Shown here: positions 26,678-32,678 of the stretch, piece by piece
How the letters are laid out: each line of letters begins with the position of its first letter
Numbering within the stretch: the first letter of the stretch is position 1
NCBI RefSeq assembly: GCF_011038975.1
Contig: NZ_JAAKEC010000019.1
Span: forward strand, 1 to 56,315
Length of the DNA: 56,315 nucleotides
DNA from: Adlercreutzia sp. ZJ176
Lineage (GTDB): Bacteria; Actinomycetota; Coriobacteriia; Coriobacteriales; Eggerthellaceae
Direction of reading: 5' to 3'
Notes under the pieces: generated by a model
Seen by the model: the letters and a program-made list of their open reading frames with translations, nothing else
Told to the model about the DNA's origin: nothing
Databases searched by the model: none
Position numbers and translations under genes: made by a program

Positions 26678-28228
26678 TTAGCTCGCGGCCGTCTCCGCCT
26701 CGAGCTCGCGCTCGTACTCGCGGTCGGTCGCGCCCTTCACGCTCGGCGGCTTCACGTCGAACGGGACGCTCGGCGTCACCAGGCTCACGAGCGGCACCAC
26801 CGCCAGCGACAGCAGCATGCACAGCGCGCCGCAGTTGATGGGGCTCGCGATGAGCGGCGCGCCCGCGAAGCCCATGCCCATGTTGACGGCCGTGAGGCCC
26901 ACGCCGATGGCGAACGAGCACCACACCGACGCCTTCGAGATGCGCCCAGAGTACAGGCCCCACAGGAAGGGGCCGAGGAACGAGCCGGCCAGCGCTCCCC
27001 ACGAGTAGCCCATGAGCTGGGCGATGAACACGATGCTCGAGTGGTACTGCAGAAGGGCGATGGCCGCCGAGAGCACGATGAACACCACGAGCAGGCCGCG
27101 CATGCACACGAGCTGCTTCTTCTCGGACATGTCCCTCACCACGTTGTCCTTGATGAGGTCGATGGTCAGCGTCGAGGACGACGTGAGCACCAGCGACGAC
27201 AGCGTCGACATGGACGCCGACAGCACGAGCACGATCACCAGGCCGATCAGCACGTCAGGCAGCGTGGAGAGCATGGTGGGGATGATGGAGTCGTAGATGG
27301 GCGTGCCGTTGGCGGCGTACTCGATCTGGTCGGCGTACAGGCGCCCGAAGCCACCGAGGAAGTACGAGCCGCCGGCCACCACGAACGCGAACAACGTGGA
27401 GATGATGGCGCCCTGCTTCACCGCCGGGCCGCTCTTGATGGCGTAGAACTTCTGCACCATCTGCGGCAGGCCCCACGTGCCGAGCGAGGTCAGGATGACC
27501 ACGCCGATGAGGTTGAACAGGTCAGGCCCAAAGAAGCTGATGAACGCGCCCTGCATGTCGGTCCCCGGCGCCTCGATCTGCGAGAGCGAGATGACCGCCT
27601 CGGAGAAGCCGCCGTTGCTCATGATGACCGCCGTGATGACCGCCGTGATGCCCAGGAGCATGACGATGCCCTGGATGAAGTCGTTCATGACCGTGGCCAT
27701 GTAGCCGCCGACTACCACGTACACGCAGGTCACGATGGCCATGCCGATTACGCACACGTCATAGGGCAGGTTGAACGCCATGCCGAACAAACGCGACAGG
27801 CCGTTGTACACGCTCGCGGTGTAGGGGATGAGGAAGACGAAGATGATGGCCGCGGCCGCGATGCGCAAGGCCTTCGACTGGTAGCGCTTGCCGAAGAACT
27901 CCGGCATGGTCTGCGCGCCAAGGCGGTGCGTCATCTCGCGCGTGCGGGGGCCGAGCACCCACCACGCCAGAAGCGAGCCGAGGATCGCGTTGCCGATGCC
28001 CGCCCACGTGGCCGCCAGGCCGTACTTGAAGCCGAACTGCCCCGCGTAGCCGACGAACACGACGGCCGAGAAGTAGCTGGTGCCGTACGCGAACGCGCTC
28101 ATCCACGGGCCGACGTTGCGCCCGCCGAGCACGAATCCGTCCACCGTCGAGGTGGTCTTGCGGCAATACAGGCCCACGCCCACCGCGATCGCGATGAACA
28201 CGAGGACCAGGAGAATCTTGACTGCCAT
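26678..28228 (-). CDS. Sodium:solute symporter (SSS family)
   Basis: The 516-aa product has about 13 membrane helices and SSS features: G-G-R-N-V-G-P-W near residue 35, W-A-G-I-G-N near 76, and the conserved G-T-W-G-L-P-Q-M-V-Q-K-F-Y stretch near 250 with the sodium-site T-S-S-S-T-L-T region around 350. The ATG at 28228 follows GAAGGAAAG. Substrate cannot be assigned (proline, pantothenate and carboxylic acids are transported by relatives). An intrinsic-type terminator and a 60-codon open frame lie just upstream on the same strand, suggesting transcription attenuation. Confidence 0.9.
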   Translation of the reverse strand: MAVKILLVLVFIAIAVGVGLYCRKTTSTVDGFVLGGRNVGPWMSAFAYGTSYFSAVVFVGYAGQFGFKYGLAATWAGIGNAILGSLLAWWVLGPRTREMTHRLGAQTMPEFFGKRYQSKALRIAAAAIIFVFLIPYTASVYNGLSRLFGMAFNLPYDVCVIGMAIVTCVYVVVGGYMATVMNDFIQGIVMLLGITAVITAVIMSNGGFSEAVISLSQIEAPGTDMQGAFISFFGPDLFNLIGVVILTSLGTWGLPQMVQKFYAIKSGPAVKQGAIISTLFAFVVAGGSYFLGGFGRLYADQIEYAANGTPIYDSIIPTMLSTLPDVLIGLVIVLVLSASMSTLSSLVLTSSSTLTIDLIKDNVVRDMSEKKQLVCMRGLLVVFIVLSAAIALLQYHSSIVFIAQLMGYSWGALAGSFLGPFLWGLYSGRISKASVWCSFAIGVGLTAVNMGMGFAGAPLIASPINCGALCMLLSLAVVPLVSLVTPSVPFDVKPPSVKGATDREYERELEAETAAS

Positions 28229-28323
28229 TGCTTTCCTTCTTCTTGTGCGCGCCGCCAGGCGGCGCATAGTCGAACAGGTTTTTCTCGGGAAGGCGCACAC
28301 GACCTCCGCCCCGAAACGAGTGC

Positions 28324-28356
28324 AAAAAAATAGCACCGGGGCGAAACCCGTGTGCT
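28324..28356 (-). terminator. Intrinsic terminator/attenuator upstream of the symporter gene
   Basis: On the minus strand AGCACACGGG pairs with CCCGGTGCT around a TTTCGC loop, followed by ATTTTTTT. It lies 96 bp before the symporter start and immediately after the stop codon of the 60-codon frame. Confidence 0.8.
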
Positions 28357-28917: not shown

Positions 28918-29044
28918 TGTCATCCTGAGCGGAGCGCCCGCAGGGCGCGGAGTCGAAGGATCTGGTCGCGAGTGGATGGCGCGTGCGGGCGCGCCGTGCC
29001 CGGGGCCGGATCCTTCGACCCGCTTCGCTCGCTCAGGATGACAC
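28918..29044. repeat. Palindromic element, family C, copy 1
   Basis: Arms GTCATCCTGAGCG...GTCGAAGGATCTGG and GGATCCTTCGAC...CGCTCAGGATGAC face each other over a CG-rich centre. Translated, these elements give the frequently seen H-P-E-R-A-K-R-V-E-G-S peptide. Other copies: 29488, 31492, 31666 (half), 48559 (half) and 50727 (half, inside iorA). Confidence 0.85.
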
Positions 29045-29118
29045 GAGGGGCTGCTCGCCCAGGGATGGCATGGGAAGGGATGGCGCTGCAGGGTTCCTGG
29101 GGTCTTCACGCCGAGGGG

Positions 29119-29327
29119 CGTGCAGATTTTTCGAGCTGTTTTGGCAGAAATCTTCAGATATTGGTCGTCTTATCATTGGATTATGGGGGTCAGCCCGCGG
29201 GCGAGAATTCCTGACCTGCGGATACGCTGAGAGTCGCGAGGCGCGGGCCTCCTGGTTGGTGATGTTTCGGCCTCGGAGAGACAAATATCTGAAGATTTCT
29301 GCCAAAATGCCCTGTCAAATTTGCACG
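29119..29327. repeat. Palindromic element, family B, copy 1 (209 bp)
   Basis: A perfect 22-bp inverted repeat (29139-29160 and 29286-29307, core TTTTGGCAGAAATCTTCAGA) sits inside longer imperfect arms beginning CGTGCA. The interior contains ATTCCTGACCTGCGG. The second copy is at 53240-53469. Confidence 0.8.
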
Positions 29328-29377
29328 ATGCTCTGGCTCCGGCCTCGGCGTCGCGTGATGTGCGCGACCGTGCGGAC

Positions 29378-29447
29378 GCGCGCGCTTGCGCTCGCAAGAG
29401 CCTTGTATCCCCCGCTTCGTCCCAAGCAGAGTACCCGCGTCAGGTAT
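29378..29447 (+). repeat. 68-bp direct repeat, copy 2
   Basis: Near-copy of 28713-28780, again followed by a family C element. Confidence 0.65.
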
Positions 29448-29487
29448 CTCCCCCATGTCACCGAGCGCATACCTGCGCCATCCTCCC

Positions 29488-29636
29488 GTGTCATCCTGAG
29501 CGCCCGCAAGGCGCGGAGTCAAAGGATCTGGCCGCAGGCGGGTTGCGCAGGCGGGTTGCGCGGGCGGGTTGCACATGCGGGCGCGCCGTGCCCGGGGCCA
29601 GATCCTTCGACTCGCTTCGCTCGCTCAGGATGACAC
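29488..29636. repeat. Palindromic element, family C, copy 2
   Basis: Same arms as copy 1. The centre carries three consecutive 13-bp units (29534-29572). Confidence 0.85.
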
Positions 29637-29850
29637 GGAGAGGGACGCTCACTCGGTGACGCGAGGAGAGGACGCTCGTCCAGGATGACACGGGGAAGGC
29701 TGCTCACTCAGGACATGAAGAAAGACTGCCACCCATGATATGAGGAGGGCACTTGCCTGGAAAGACGCAGGAGGGCACGCCGGGCTGGGGTGCGCCCTCC
29801 TGTTCGTCGCTCTCCTTGCGTTCGCCGTCCTTCTCGTCGGCTTTCTCGCC

Positions 29851-31086
29851 TTAGTACCGGGAGTCGAAGATTCGCTTGGTCTTCTTTTCCGAGCGCGGGA
29901 GCTCGCCCATGGGGACCCCCTTCGCATCGGGGGTGCAGCCGAGCTTCGCCTTGAAGATCATGGCGAGCTCCTCTTCGCAGCGGGCCTTGTCCTCGCCCTC
30001 GAGCGGCGTCTCGAACAGGACCGTGAGCACGTCCTTGCCCGAGATGTTCTCGATCATCACCTGGTACTCGGAGCTGGTGCCGTTGGTGATCTGGATGACC
30101 TCCTCCACCTGGGCGGGGAACATGTTACAGCCCTTGACCTTGAACATGTCGTCGGTGCGGCCCGTCAGCGTGGCGATGCGCGGGTGGCGGCTGCCGCAGG
30201 CGCACTCACCTGGGACGATGTGCGTCAGGTCGTGCGTGCGGTAGCGGATGAGCGGCGCGCCCTCCTTCTGCAGCGTGGTGAGCACCAGCTCGCCCTCCTC
30301 GCCGTCGGGCAGGACCTCGCCCGTGTTCGGGTCGACCACCTCGATGTAGACGTAGTCGTCCCAGATGTGCATGCCCGAGTGCTCGTCGCAGCTGATGCCG
30401 ATGCCGGGGCCGTAGATCTCGGTGAGACCGTAGATATCGTAGATCTCGATGCCGAGCTCGTTCTGAATGCGGCTGCGCATCTTCTCGCCCCAGCGCTCGG
30501 AGCCGATGACGCCCTTGCGCAGCTTCAAGCGGCTGCGGATGCCGCGCTTCTGGATCTCCTCGGCCAGAAGCAGCGCGTACGAGCTGGTAGCGCCGATGAC
30601 CGTGGAGCCCAAATCCTCCATCATCTTGAGCTGCTTGTCGGTGTTGCCGGGGCCCATGGGGATGGCCATGGCGCCGAGGCGCTCGGCGCCGAGCTGGAAG
30701 CCGATGCCCGCCGTCCACAGGCCGTAGCCCGGCGTGATCTGGATGCGGTCGGTGTTGGTGACGCCCGCCATCTCGTAGCAGCGCGCGAACTGGATGGCCC
30801 AGTCGTCGACGTCCTTCTGGGTGTAGGGAATGATGACCGGCGTGCCCGTGGTGCCCGAGGAGCTGTGGATGCGCACCACCTTCTCGTCCGGCACGGCCTG
30901 CAGCCCCAGCGGGTAGGCGGCGCGCAGGTCGTCCTTCTCGGAGAAGGGCAGCTTCTCGAAGTCGGCCTGGGTCTTGATGTCGCCCATGTCGACGCCTTCG
31001 AACTTCTTGGCGTAGAAGGGGCTGCGCTCCTTCAAGTTGGCGAGCTGCTTCTTCAGCATGTCGAGCTGTGCGGAGGTCATTTCCAT
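29851..31086 (-). CDS. paaK: Phenylacetate-CoA ligase family adenylate-forming enzyme
   Basis: PaaK activates arylacetates to arylacetyl-CoA with ATP. The 411-aa product has the P-loop S-S-S-G-T-T-G-T-P (about residues 74-82), the adenylation motif Y-G-L-T-E (about 222), the Y-R-T-H-D-L hinge region near 288 and the family C-A-C-G-S-R-H-P-R segment. The length is slightly below the family norm of about 430. The ATG at 31086 follows AAAGAGA. IorAB, which oxidatively decarboxylates arylpyruvates to arylacyl-CoA, is encoded 19 kb away; PaaK could run in reverse to conserve the CoA thioester as ATP. A candidate attenuator precedes the gene. It is flanked by dispersed repeats on both sides. Confidence 0.9.
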   Translation of the reverse strand: MEMTSAQLDMLKKQLANLKERSPFYAKKFEGVDMGDIKTQADFEKLPFSEKDDLRAAYPLGLQAVPDEKVVRIHSSSGTTGTPVIIPYTQKDVDDWAIQFARCYEMAGVTNTDRIQITPGYGLWTAGIGFQLGAERLGAMAIPMGPGNTDKQLKMMEDLGSTVIGATSSYALLLAEEIQKRGIRSRLKLRKGVIGSERWGEKMRSRIQNELGIEIYDIYGLTEIYGPGIGISCDEHSGMHIWDDYVYIEVVDPNTGEVLPDGEEGELVLTTLQKEGAPLIRYRTHDLTHIVPGECACGSRHPRIATLTGRTDDMFKVKGCNMFPAQVEEVIQITNGTSSEYQVMIENISGKDVLTVLFETPLEGEDKARCEEELAMIFKAKLGCTPDAKGVPMGELPRSEKKTKRIFDSRY

Positions 31087-31202
31087 GATGGTCTCTTTCT
31101 GTGGAGGCCGCAGCGCGCGCAGGCGCGCGACGGCGGCTTGACGAACGGAACGCGGCGGCAACGCGAGACGTGCGCTGAATGAGCAGATGCGAAGCCGACC
31201 GG

Positions 31203-31240
31203 AAAAATGCGCGGCGCTTCAAACCCGGCGCACGCCGCGC
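31203..31240 (-). terminator. Intrinsic terminator in the paaK leader (candidate attenuator)
   Basis: On the minus strand GCGCGGCG (31240-31233) pairs perfectly with CGCCGCGC (31216-31209), followed by ATTTTT. The loop contains CGGGTTTGAAG, which can instead pair with CTTCAAGCCCG (31265-31255), one G-U apart. The two pairings compete, as expected of an attenuator. It lies 117 bp before the paaK start. Confidence 0.6.
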
Positions 31241-31265
31241 CTAAGCGCAGCCCGCGGGCTTGAAG

Positions 31266-31334
31266 CTAAAGCCATCGCCCAGCCAACGCGTTGCGCGCGG
31301 CGAGCAGAGAAGAGATGTCGTCCATCAGAAGCAT
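31266..31334 (-). CDS. Candidate 22-aa leader peptide of paaK
   Basis: The ATG at 31334 opens 22 codons (M-L-L-M-D-D-I-S-S-L-L-A-A-R-N-A-L-A-G-R-W-L) and ends TAG immediately before the alternative-pairing strand CTTCAAGCCCG. The predicted transcription start falls at or next to the ATG, so it would be translated as a leaderless message. It has a single Trp near its end. It is hypothetical. Confidence 0.4.
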   Translation of the reverse strand: MLLMDDISSLLAARNALAGRWL

Positions 31335-31341
31335 GTTCGCT

Positions 31342-31369
31342 ATTGTACGCTAAAGCACTCGCGGCGCAA
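31342..31369 (-). promoter_or_regulatory. Candidate promoter of the paaK transcript
   Basis: TTGCGC (31369-31364), 16-bp spacer, TACAAT (31347-31342), on the minus strand. The region overlaps a hairpin AAAGCACT/AGTGCTTTTT (31352-31389) that would end plus-strand transcription. Confidence 0.5.
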
Positions 31370-31491
31370 CCGGTCGCAAGTGCTTTTTCGGCAAGAAATT
31401 GCGGAACCGTTTCCCGACGTCGAAGTCTGGGCGTGTTCCGCCTGCAGCTGAATCTTACCACGGAAGCACTTCCTTGAGAACGCGTAGGCCC

Positions 31492-31692
31492 TGTGTCATC
31501 CTGAGCGAGCGAAGCGAGTCGAAGGATCTGGCCCCGGGCATGGCGCGCCCGCATGCTCCATCCGCTTGCGGCCGGATCCTTCGACTCCGCGCCCTGCGGG
31601 CGCTCCGCTCAGGATGACACACAAGAGCAACATGCTGCCCAGGACGACACGGGGTGAGTACCTGATGCGGGCGCTCCGCTCAGGATGACACG
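31492..31692. repeat. Palindromic elements, family C, copies 3 and 4
   Basis: A full copy at 31492-31620 with both arms and a half copy ending at 31692 (GCGCTCCGCTCAGGATGACAC). Confidence 0.85.
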
Positions 31693-31907: not shown

Positions 31908-32186
31908 TTACTGCCCGCCCAGGTGTTGCACGATACGGTAGACGTTGCCCACTTGGGCGCCGTTCTCGTCGTGGCAGGCGATGACCTCCACGAGGCCCTC
32001 CTTGCGGAAACGCGCGATGGCGCGGTCGACGGTCTTCTCGCTGCAGCCGACCGCGTGGGCGATGTCGTTCTTGGTGCAGCGCGCCACGCCGTCAAACACC
32101 GACAGCTCGACGATGCGGCCAAGGATTCGCTGCTGGGAGTACGTCAGGCGCTTGACGCAGCTTCCCTCGTTCGTTCTCGGGGTCAT
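31908..32186 (-). CDS. Small winged-helix DNA-binding protein
   Basis: The 92-aa product consists essentially of one winged helix: T-K-N-D-I-A-H-A-V-G-C-S-E-K-T-V-D-R-A as the helix-turn-helix (about residues 40-58) followed by a wing with E-G-L-V-E-V-I-A-C. It is probably a transcriptional regulator without a separate sensor domain. The start at 32186 (M-T-P-R-T-N-E-G) is the first Met before the domain. It is monocistronic, downstream of the pilus locus on the same strand, so read-through from that locus could reach it. Confidence 0.7.
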   Translation of the reverse strand: MTPRTNEGSCVKRLTYSQQRILGRIVELSVFDGVARCTKNDIAHAVGCSEKTVDRAIARFRKEGLVEVIACHDENGAQVGNVYRIVQHLGGQ

Positions 32187-32678
32187 GCTACCGCAACCCC
32201 CTCCGCCGACGACGAACGCCAAGGGAGCTCGTCCCGCAGGTCAACGCGAAGGAGTCTATCCCCTTGTTGTCAACAGCGATCGCCTGGGATGCGGGGACGA
32301 GGAAGAGGCGGTTGCACATGCGAGCACAAGGCCCCTCGTTTTTCATTTTGAAGCCCCCCCCCCCGCAATTTTTCTCCGGCTTTCCATCGGTTTCATCTCC
32401 CTACTTCCATCCTCTCTGTCTAGCTCTAACAACTCGTTTCGAGGTCAAACCTCGGGTGTATTACCGCAAGCAACCATAGGTGATTGAACACTTTTTTAGG
32501 TGATGTGTCTTCTACGATAAGTAGAGATTTCGCTTGATTTTTTGTGCATCCTGCGACTATTGCCACCCCTCCCCTATGCGCGCTCGTCACTGCGCCGCCC
32601 GGCAGCGAACCGCGGGAGAGATTCATCCCTATGCTGTTGACACCCCGAAAAGCCATGCCGCGCAGCCTCCGCCCGATC
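32187..32678. other. Intergenic region with a C11 tract; no gene recognised
   Basis: This is the 3' flank of the pilus locus. It is notably A/T-richer from 32330 to 32550, with a run of eleven C residues at 32354-32364. No convincing terminator, tRNA or gene was found; a 76-codon frame at 32426-32656 lacks a ribosome site and domain features. Confidence 0.55.

Follow-up and report, generated by a model that had tools for sequence, protein, structure and literature searches.

The stretch of DNA analysed here (hereafter, the window) comprises 56,315 nucleotides and carries on its minus strand a paaK gene for a PaaK-like aryl-CoA ligase (29851-31086, start at 31086; TIGR02155, 394.9 bits, below the cut-off of 646.3; Pfam AMP-binding). 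Downstream on the same strand lies a sodium:solute symporter gene (26678-28336; PF00474, 189.8 bits). Upstream of paaK, we read from the sequence a minus-strand promoter (31342-31369) composed of TTGCGC (31369-31364), a 16-nt spacer and TACAAT (31347-31342). An ATG at 31334, 7 nt behind TACAAT, opens a predicted leaderless ORF of 22 codons plus UAG (31266-31334, minus strand) that encodes the peptide MLLMDDISSLLAARNALAGRWL, ending in AGRWL. The stop codon (31268-31266) is followed by CTTCAAGCCCG on the same strand.

The peptide end, the stop codon and the start of a hairpin fall within a conserved block, GGCTGGGCGATGGCTTTAGCTTCAAG (31259-31284, minus strand), which includes an invariant arginine codon, CGA, and the TGG codon that we propose as sensor (together 31272-31277, minus strand). 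A first hairpin, H1, is predicted within the leader coding sequence (31276-31306, minus strand), both in the window and in most single folds of homologous loci. A second, H2 (31216-31266, minus strand; -37.1 kcal/mol), begins with the G of UAG: its 5’ arm spans 31266-31255 and its 3’ arm 31227-31216. GCTTCAAGCCCG opens with the final base of the stop codon, and its complement, CGGGTTTGAAGC (31227-31216), sits within the loop of another stem, GCGCGGCG/CGCCGCGC (31240-31233/31216-31209). The latter is the GC hairpin of a preliminary description, with an ATTTTT that ends at 31203 (31203-31240, minus strand; -17.4 kcal/mol); it and H2 are mutually exclusive. Promoter, ATG, 22-codon ORF, stop, stem and T-run all lie on the minus strand where that description had put them.

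Further features of the window include an interspersed repeat with GTCATCCTGAGC or its complement in nine places (28919-31690, also 48593 and 50750), two copies of which—on each strand’s reading—lie just upstream of the leader promoter. An ORF of 104 amino acids upstream of the leader (31908-32222, minus strand) has winged-helix matches (HTH_29, HTH_Crp_2), and a glycine riboswitch aptamer maps to 794-924 of the plus strand (51 bits versus a gathering score of 32).

The leader recurs across Eggerthellaceae

When 138 genomes of the same family were searched at the DNA level, 39 gave matches, and in many cases these spanned GGCTGGGCGATGGCTTTAGCTTCAAG or lay wholly within it. Searching with a pattern (at most two mismatches) gave exactly one match in each of 49 genomes, compared to one match overall for the reversed control pattern. 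Four of these 49 matches (G002, G003, G006 and G018) had neither an open frame nor paaK and were dropped, and two variant leaders, L117 and L118, were added from paaK upstream regions, yielding 47 leader homologues in 18 of the 48 listed genera of Eggerthellaceae. At the level of the class, a related pattern (at most one mismatch) matched 39 of 396 genomes, all Eggerthellaceae, and two of these (G002 and G006) are chance matches.

Among 84,980 species genomes, the exact pattern GGKCGATGGYNYTAGCTTCARG had 36 matches. Thirty-four come from genomes labelled as Eggerthellaceae, as Coriobacteria or as one of their genera (among others Adlercreutzia, Slackia, Gordonibacter, Eggerthella, Paraeggerthella, Senegalimassilia, Ellagibacter, Enteroscipio, Rubneribacter and Curtanaerobium) and correspond to the loci studied here, with none new. 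L204, from a metagenome-assembled genome labelled Lachnospiraceae, carries a real leader followed by paaK at 68% identity; the L190 match lies within a gene and was rejected as a chance match. Another pattern, GCNGGNCGNTGGNNNTRR, was discarded as far too loose.

The 70 paaK upstream regions that the first pattern did not match were scanned by script. This yielded the variant leaders L117 and L118 as well as short leaderless ORFs without a Trp codon in L139 and L159. L122 and L216 contain T-box words; those in L138 and L157 are weak, and L157 gave no T-box match at E up to 0.1. The one in L159 (G040) is a possible leaderless leader of eight codons, MFTVNRKP, upstream of paaK and 6 nt behind TACAAT. 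No Rfam family matches the window leader, and RF00230 has no match within 31060-31400 at E up to 1. Literature searches on paaK leader peptides or attenuation, on Eggerthella and on upstream ORFs in these genera found no paper on the element.

As judged from these comparisons, the leader element is conserved far beyond the window, and by more than chance, because 47 genomes share the promoter, the open frame, the end of the peptide and the CTTCAAG stem.

The start, the frame and the peptide end are conserved

Each of the 47 leaders has an ATG behind its -10 box, at a distance of 6 nt in 18, 7 nt in 27 and 8 nt in one. In the remaining locus, L070, the ATG lies 3 nt behind TATAGT or 6 nt behind an overlapping TACTAT, and the spacing of 6-8 nt holds for all 47 if TACTAT is taken; the ATGs of L087, L096 and L100 were picked by hand among alternatives. 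With the -10 box and the ATG only some 6-8 nt apart, the leader is probably leaderless in all 47 homologues, in agreement with the earlier prediction of a leaderless leader peptide. The frame is open to its stop in 47/47, with lengths of 19, 20, 21, 22, 23, 26 or 39 codons. Across the leaders, the three frames contain 0, 45 and 7 stops; the absence of stops is a weak argument by itself, because one wrong frame is nearly open too. In our reading of the alignments, the argument for translation is instead carried by the fixed start and the lengths. The N-terminal part varies freely (320 nonsynonymous versus 65 synonymous codon differences, counted over related, overlapping pairs), as expected if only the peptide end matters.

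The peptide ends in AGRWx in 46 of the 47 leaders and in AVRWx in one. Alanine is present throughout (GCT 26, GCA 10, GCG 9, GCC 2), followed by glycine in 46 and valine in one; arginine is always encoded by CGA, and tryptophan, two codons before the stop, by UGG (47/47 each). The last residue is L in 38, R in 6, and H, F or P in one each. The stop is TAG in 46/47 and TTG in one (G089); at this locus (L092), the frame continues into the hairpin. All leaders except one contain a single Trp codon—the exception has two—and there is no run of regulatory codons. In 44 downstream paaK genes, CGA makes up 2.2% of arginine codons, while GGC and CTG, which account for 78% of glycine and 50% of leucine codons in paaK genes, are never used at the leader glycine and last codons. 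The codon choice at these three positions implies a constraint at the nucleotide level as well.

Two further observations concern the coding region. A motif anchored to the 5’ end occupies leader positions +17 to +19 (window 31318-31316): A in 46/47, C or T in 45/47 and A in 46/47. Its position is independent of ORF length, and from it a stretch poor in G and rich in pyrimidines extends to about +33; residue 6 is D, N, H or Y, whose codons have in common only the middle A and a C or T. Pyrimidine-rich stretches, of possible relevance to Rho, are present. Besides, the ATG in CGATGG opens an overlapping frame (window 31276-31262) reading MALAS in 44 leaders, MALAA in two and MVLAS in one, which makes reinitiation next to the leader stop possible. 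Changes before the leader stop look synonymous in this frame, but the length and end of its ORF vary widely.

A hairpin begins at the leader stop codon

The arms of H2 are GCUUCAAG-like and CUUGAAGC-like in 45 loci and GCUGC/GCAGC in two, and a 3’ arm that pairs with the 5’ arm is present in 45/47. We aligned 41 of the 47 sequences, omitting L067, L096, L101, L109 and the window (long loops) as well as L077 (identical to L076). In this alignment, 94.6% of 503 cells are paired, as compared to 22-45% with the partner slid. Cells changed on both sides number 14 versus 2.3 in shuffles; pairs with a double-sided change number 3 versus 1.5, a value reached in 55 of 500 shuffles. L117 and L118, whose arms are both altered (GCTGC/GCAGC), are misaligned here. 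The support that covariation lends to H2 thus appears moderate. The stem that the preliminary description placed next to the stop codon is borne out as a hairpin starting at the leader stop. CTTCAAG:CTTGAAG as a mere antiterminator, however, is not supported; this pairing is itself the conserved hairpin, with -37.1 versus -17.4 kcal/mol for the terminator in the window.

A second CTTGAAG-type copy follows downstream in 18 loci and overlaps the paaK ribosome-binding site in L091 and L092. A T-tract stands behind the hairpin arm in 16/45 loci, versus 7.4% of random 14-mers at the same gaps, and we rejected a universal intrinsic terminator behind H2 given that the tract is found in only these 16. 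In one clade (L104-L108 and L204), GCTTCG and a downstream GCTTGAAGC are invariant and, by eye, permit a 1:2, 2:3, 3:4 scheme. Mutually exclusive hairpins are possible in the window and, again by eye, in this one clade, and are not general.

The 8-bp GC terminator with its ATTTTT is present as described, but is not conserved, and we rejected it as a working part: of the two stems first noted, only H2 is conserved. G028, the nearest relative, has ATTTCT in place of the T run, and neither the GC stem nor the T run was seen in G029, a third member of the genus. A terminator scan did not list this hairpin, whose 16-nt loop exceeds the tool’s limit of 8. The T-tract hairpin of the window excludes H2 and, taken alone, would give the opposite polarity; we regard it as incidental on the grounds that relatives are without it.

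Leader and Trp T-boxes exchange places on paaK and trpB

The next gene downstream is paaK in 46 of the 47 loci, at a distance of 73-208 nt, and trpB in one. The sodium:solute symporter gene lies downstream on the same strand in 28/47 loci and iorB upstream on the same strand in 31/47 (counted within flanks of about 2 kb for most loci and shorter ones for a few). In the first 60 paaK upstream regions (58 of them without a leader), iorB ends within 150 nt of paaK in 27, and for this reason such paaK genes probably share the ior promoter. PDT, a gene of the Phe route, was found in 108 of the 138 genomes.

The exceptional leader belongs to G082, a single metagenome-assembled genome (78% complete), where the same leader stands 203 nt before a solo trpB (TIGR00263, 526.7 bits; cut-off 392.45). 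It is the sole leader-trpB case; no trpA match was found in this 78% complete assembly, where only one PaaK match reaches E 1e-60 and, at 2e-93, is weak. The solo trpB of G099, likewise without a trpA match in that genome, has an upstream T-box (80.3 bits, E 2.5e-17, below the gathering score of 93), and upstream of the G110 trpB no leader was seen. Conversely, paaK of G021 (85% identical) has no leader and is directly preceded by a T-box with a T6 terminator (L122 745-390, minus strand; 52.6 bits, E 3.9e-9, below the gathering score of 93). In G022 (L216), of the same genus, in which the leader is absent, the sequence before paaK contains that T-box motif as well, along with AATGG and a T7 terminator.

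The specifier regions align as TCAAATGGCCC (G021 and G022), TCGAATGGGCC (G099) and TCAAATGGACC (G050, before trpE and trpD); the T-boxes of G021 paaK and G099 trpB read AATGG at the same place as that of G050 trpE. Together with T-box anatomy, which presumably places the specifier at the aligned AATGG region, this alignment suggests UGG as the specifier of these T-boxes. Against this speaks a T-box in G135, before a gene that we take from its sequence to be trpE (L215 5890-5644, minus strand): it has TTTTTTAGG where the others read UGG.

Since leader and T-box each occur on both paaK and trpB, both genes come under both devices. T-boxes switch on with uncharged tRNA. The leader should therefore act likewise, with the invariant UGG as its likely sensor, and the gene swaps suggest that it turns paaK on at tryptophan shortage. 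Where the preliminary description had left a choice between sensing of aromatic amino acid supply and of general translation, the link to tryptophan gains from UGG in 47/47 leaders, the leader before trpB and the T-box before paaK, and the gene swaps make a general sensor less likely than a tryptophan sensor. The distribution of trpA (6/47 leader genomes versus 24/91 others, p 0.08) does not differ significantly, and we rejected its absence as proof of a tryptophan role. In anaerobes, tryptophan can be made from indoleacetate by a CoA ligase followed by an indolepyruvate oxidoreductase that runs in reverse; a literature search for this route found no paper. PaaK perhaps helps to supply tryptophan in this manner, together with IorAB.

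A model for control of paaK by a single Trp codon

Computation shows how far the ATG lies from the promoter, that the frame and the end of the peptide are conserved, that H2 is present, and that leader and Trp T-boxes replace each other on two genes; we infer a start site, ribosome stalling, a polarity, a mode of output and a role of PaaK in tryptophan supply. The reading that we consider likely is that paaK is controlled by ribosome-mediated attenuation, through a leaderless ORF with a single Trp codon. Transcription would begin at the AUG or right next to it, and about 20 codons would then be translated. With tRNA-Trp charged, the ribosome would pass UGG, reach UAG and leave, whereupon H2 would close at the stop codon and downstream expression would be cut. 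Where there is a U-tract behind H2, this would happen by termination, and elsewhere by some other block. With tRNA-Trp uncharged, the ribosome would stall while UGG occupies its A site and CGA its P site. The base of the 5’ arm of H2 would then lie under the ribosome’s front edge, H2 would stay open and paaK (trpB in G082) would be made. Assuming a front edge 16 nt from the P-site codon, a ribosome with UGG in the A site ends within GCUUC, so that a stall there would block the base of H2, the part that has to close next to a U-tract; once UAG occupies the A site, the edge extends to GCUUCAAGCCC.

Against charging alone speak the single Trp codon and the fact that Ala, Gly and CGA are conserved as strongly. 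We tentatively propose, as a bolder version that we hold with much less confidence than the attenuator itself, that A-G-R(CGA)-W forms an arrest-prone chain, so that one Trp codon would suffice where the message is leaderless and the first pair of the switch comes from the stop codon, and that this switch would control the rebuilding of tryptophan from indoleacetate via PaaK and IorAB in bacteria mostly without trpA.

The same sensor might instead have a translational output, a reading to which we give somewhat less credence than to the arrest-prone chain. A long-range stem, GGNCGAUGG:CCAUCG, would here enclose H2 and hold the ribosome-binding region of paaK until a stalled ribosome sets that region free. 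This stem forms in single folds of several loci, and in five loci of related lineages (L074, L078, L081, L083 and L090) a strong complement stops 15-18 nt short of the paaK ATG, a pattern reached in 0 of 200 shuffles. Over 46 loci, however, the mean best pairing is 5.77 versus 5.25 in shuffles, and the stem is absent in the window; the motif itself is invariant. We rejected CGAUGG:CCAUCG pairing, weak over the 46 loci, as a general part and retain it as an alternative. It is unlikely that the leader is a TnaC-like arrest peptide in which an abundance of some free aromatic compound makes AGRWx stall at UAG, thereby inducing a catabolic paaK. The invariance of AGRW at the peptide level just before the stop and the UAG followed by C in 46/47 would suit arrest, as would the upstream iorB in 31/47 loci, which also fits aromatic amino acid breakdown. 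Yet the Trp T-boxes on paaK of G021 and G022 and the leader on trpB point to a gene that is wanted with uncharged Trp-tRNA. Moreover, the leader has no counterpart to Trp12, Asp16, Ile19 and Pro24 of TnaC (PMC8429421), and its last residue varies (L, R, H, F or P).

Still less probable is a general sensor of slow translation, with the rare CGA, UGG and UAG-C pausing ribosomes at any impairment of translation: the contrast between CGA in every leader and its rarity in the genes downstream would be accounted for, but not the exchange of the leader with tryptophan-specific T-boxes on paaK and trpB. An RNA element that acts by its sequence without translation, as a target of a protein or small RNA, we deem very improbable. 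A 22-nt block is indeed conserved almost regardless of codon position, with GGK, CGA and CTY constrained at third positions; ATG and frame, however, are kept in 47/47 across seven ORF lengths, and the single match per genome at up to two mismatches implies that there is no near-perfect antisense locus.

Comparison with known systems

If the attenuator reading is true, the leader would represent a family-wide, compact attenuator in Coriobacteriia that is leaderless, has one regulatory codon and places the switch over the stop codon. The gene swaps would tie paaK, named for a phenylacetate ligase, to tryptophan supply and predict how gut bacteria without trpA get tryptophan and use indoleacetate.

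With the Trp T-box (RF00230), the leader shares its target genes—paaK and solo trpB in relatives—whereas the T-box binds tRNA directly and has no leader ORF. Work by Canestrari from 2020 is said to deal with mycobacterial attenuators that consist of small, cysteine-rich ORFs without a 5’ leader. Such ORFs (PMC4633059, PMC13236596) resemble the paaK leader in being actinobacterial and small, in preceding metabolic genes and, if the prediction for the paaK leader holds, in being leaderless. They differ by a run of Cys codons and by their signal and genes, and the excerpt of PMC4633059 describes no block of AGRW, stop and hairpin.

For TnaC, PMC8429421 reports a UGA stop, Pro24 in the P site, a need for Trp12, Asp16 and Ile19, free L-Trp as inducer, catabolic genes and a Rho site. 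TnaC resembles the proposed working of the paaK leader in that the peptide is short and Trp-linked and a ribosome held at the ORF end permits downstream transcription; the paaK leader differs in having its sole Trp two codons before UAG (46/47) and a variable last residue.

The trp, his and ilv attenuators share with the leader a putative regulatory codon in a translated frame, a hairpin that the ribosome is proposed to switch, and a gene probably tied to supply of that amino acid (trpB, and paaK by T-box exchange); one clade would also permit a 1:2, 2:3, 3:4 scheme. Unlike these attenuators, the paaK leader is predicted to be leaderless and has a single Trp codon rather than a run, a T-tract in only 16 of 45 loci, and its Trp codon two codons before a stop whose last base forms the first pair of the hairpin.
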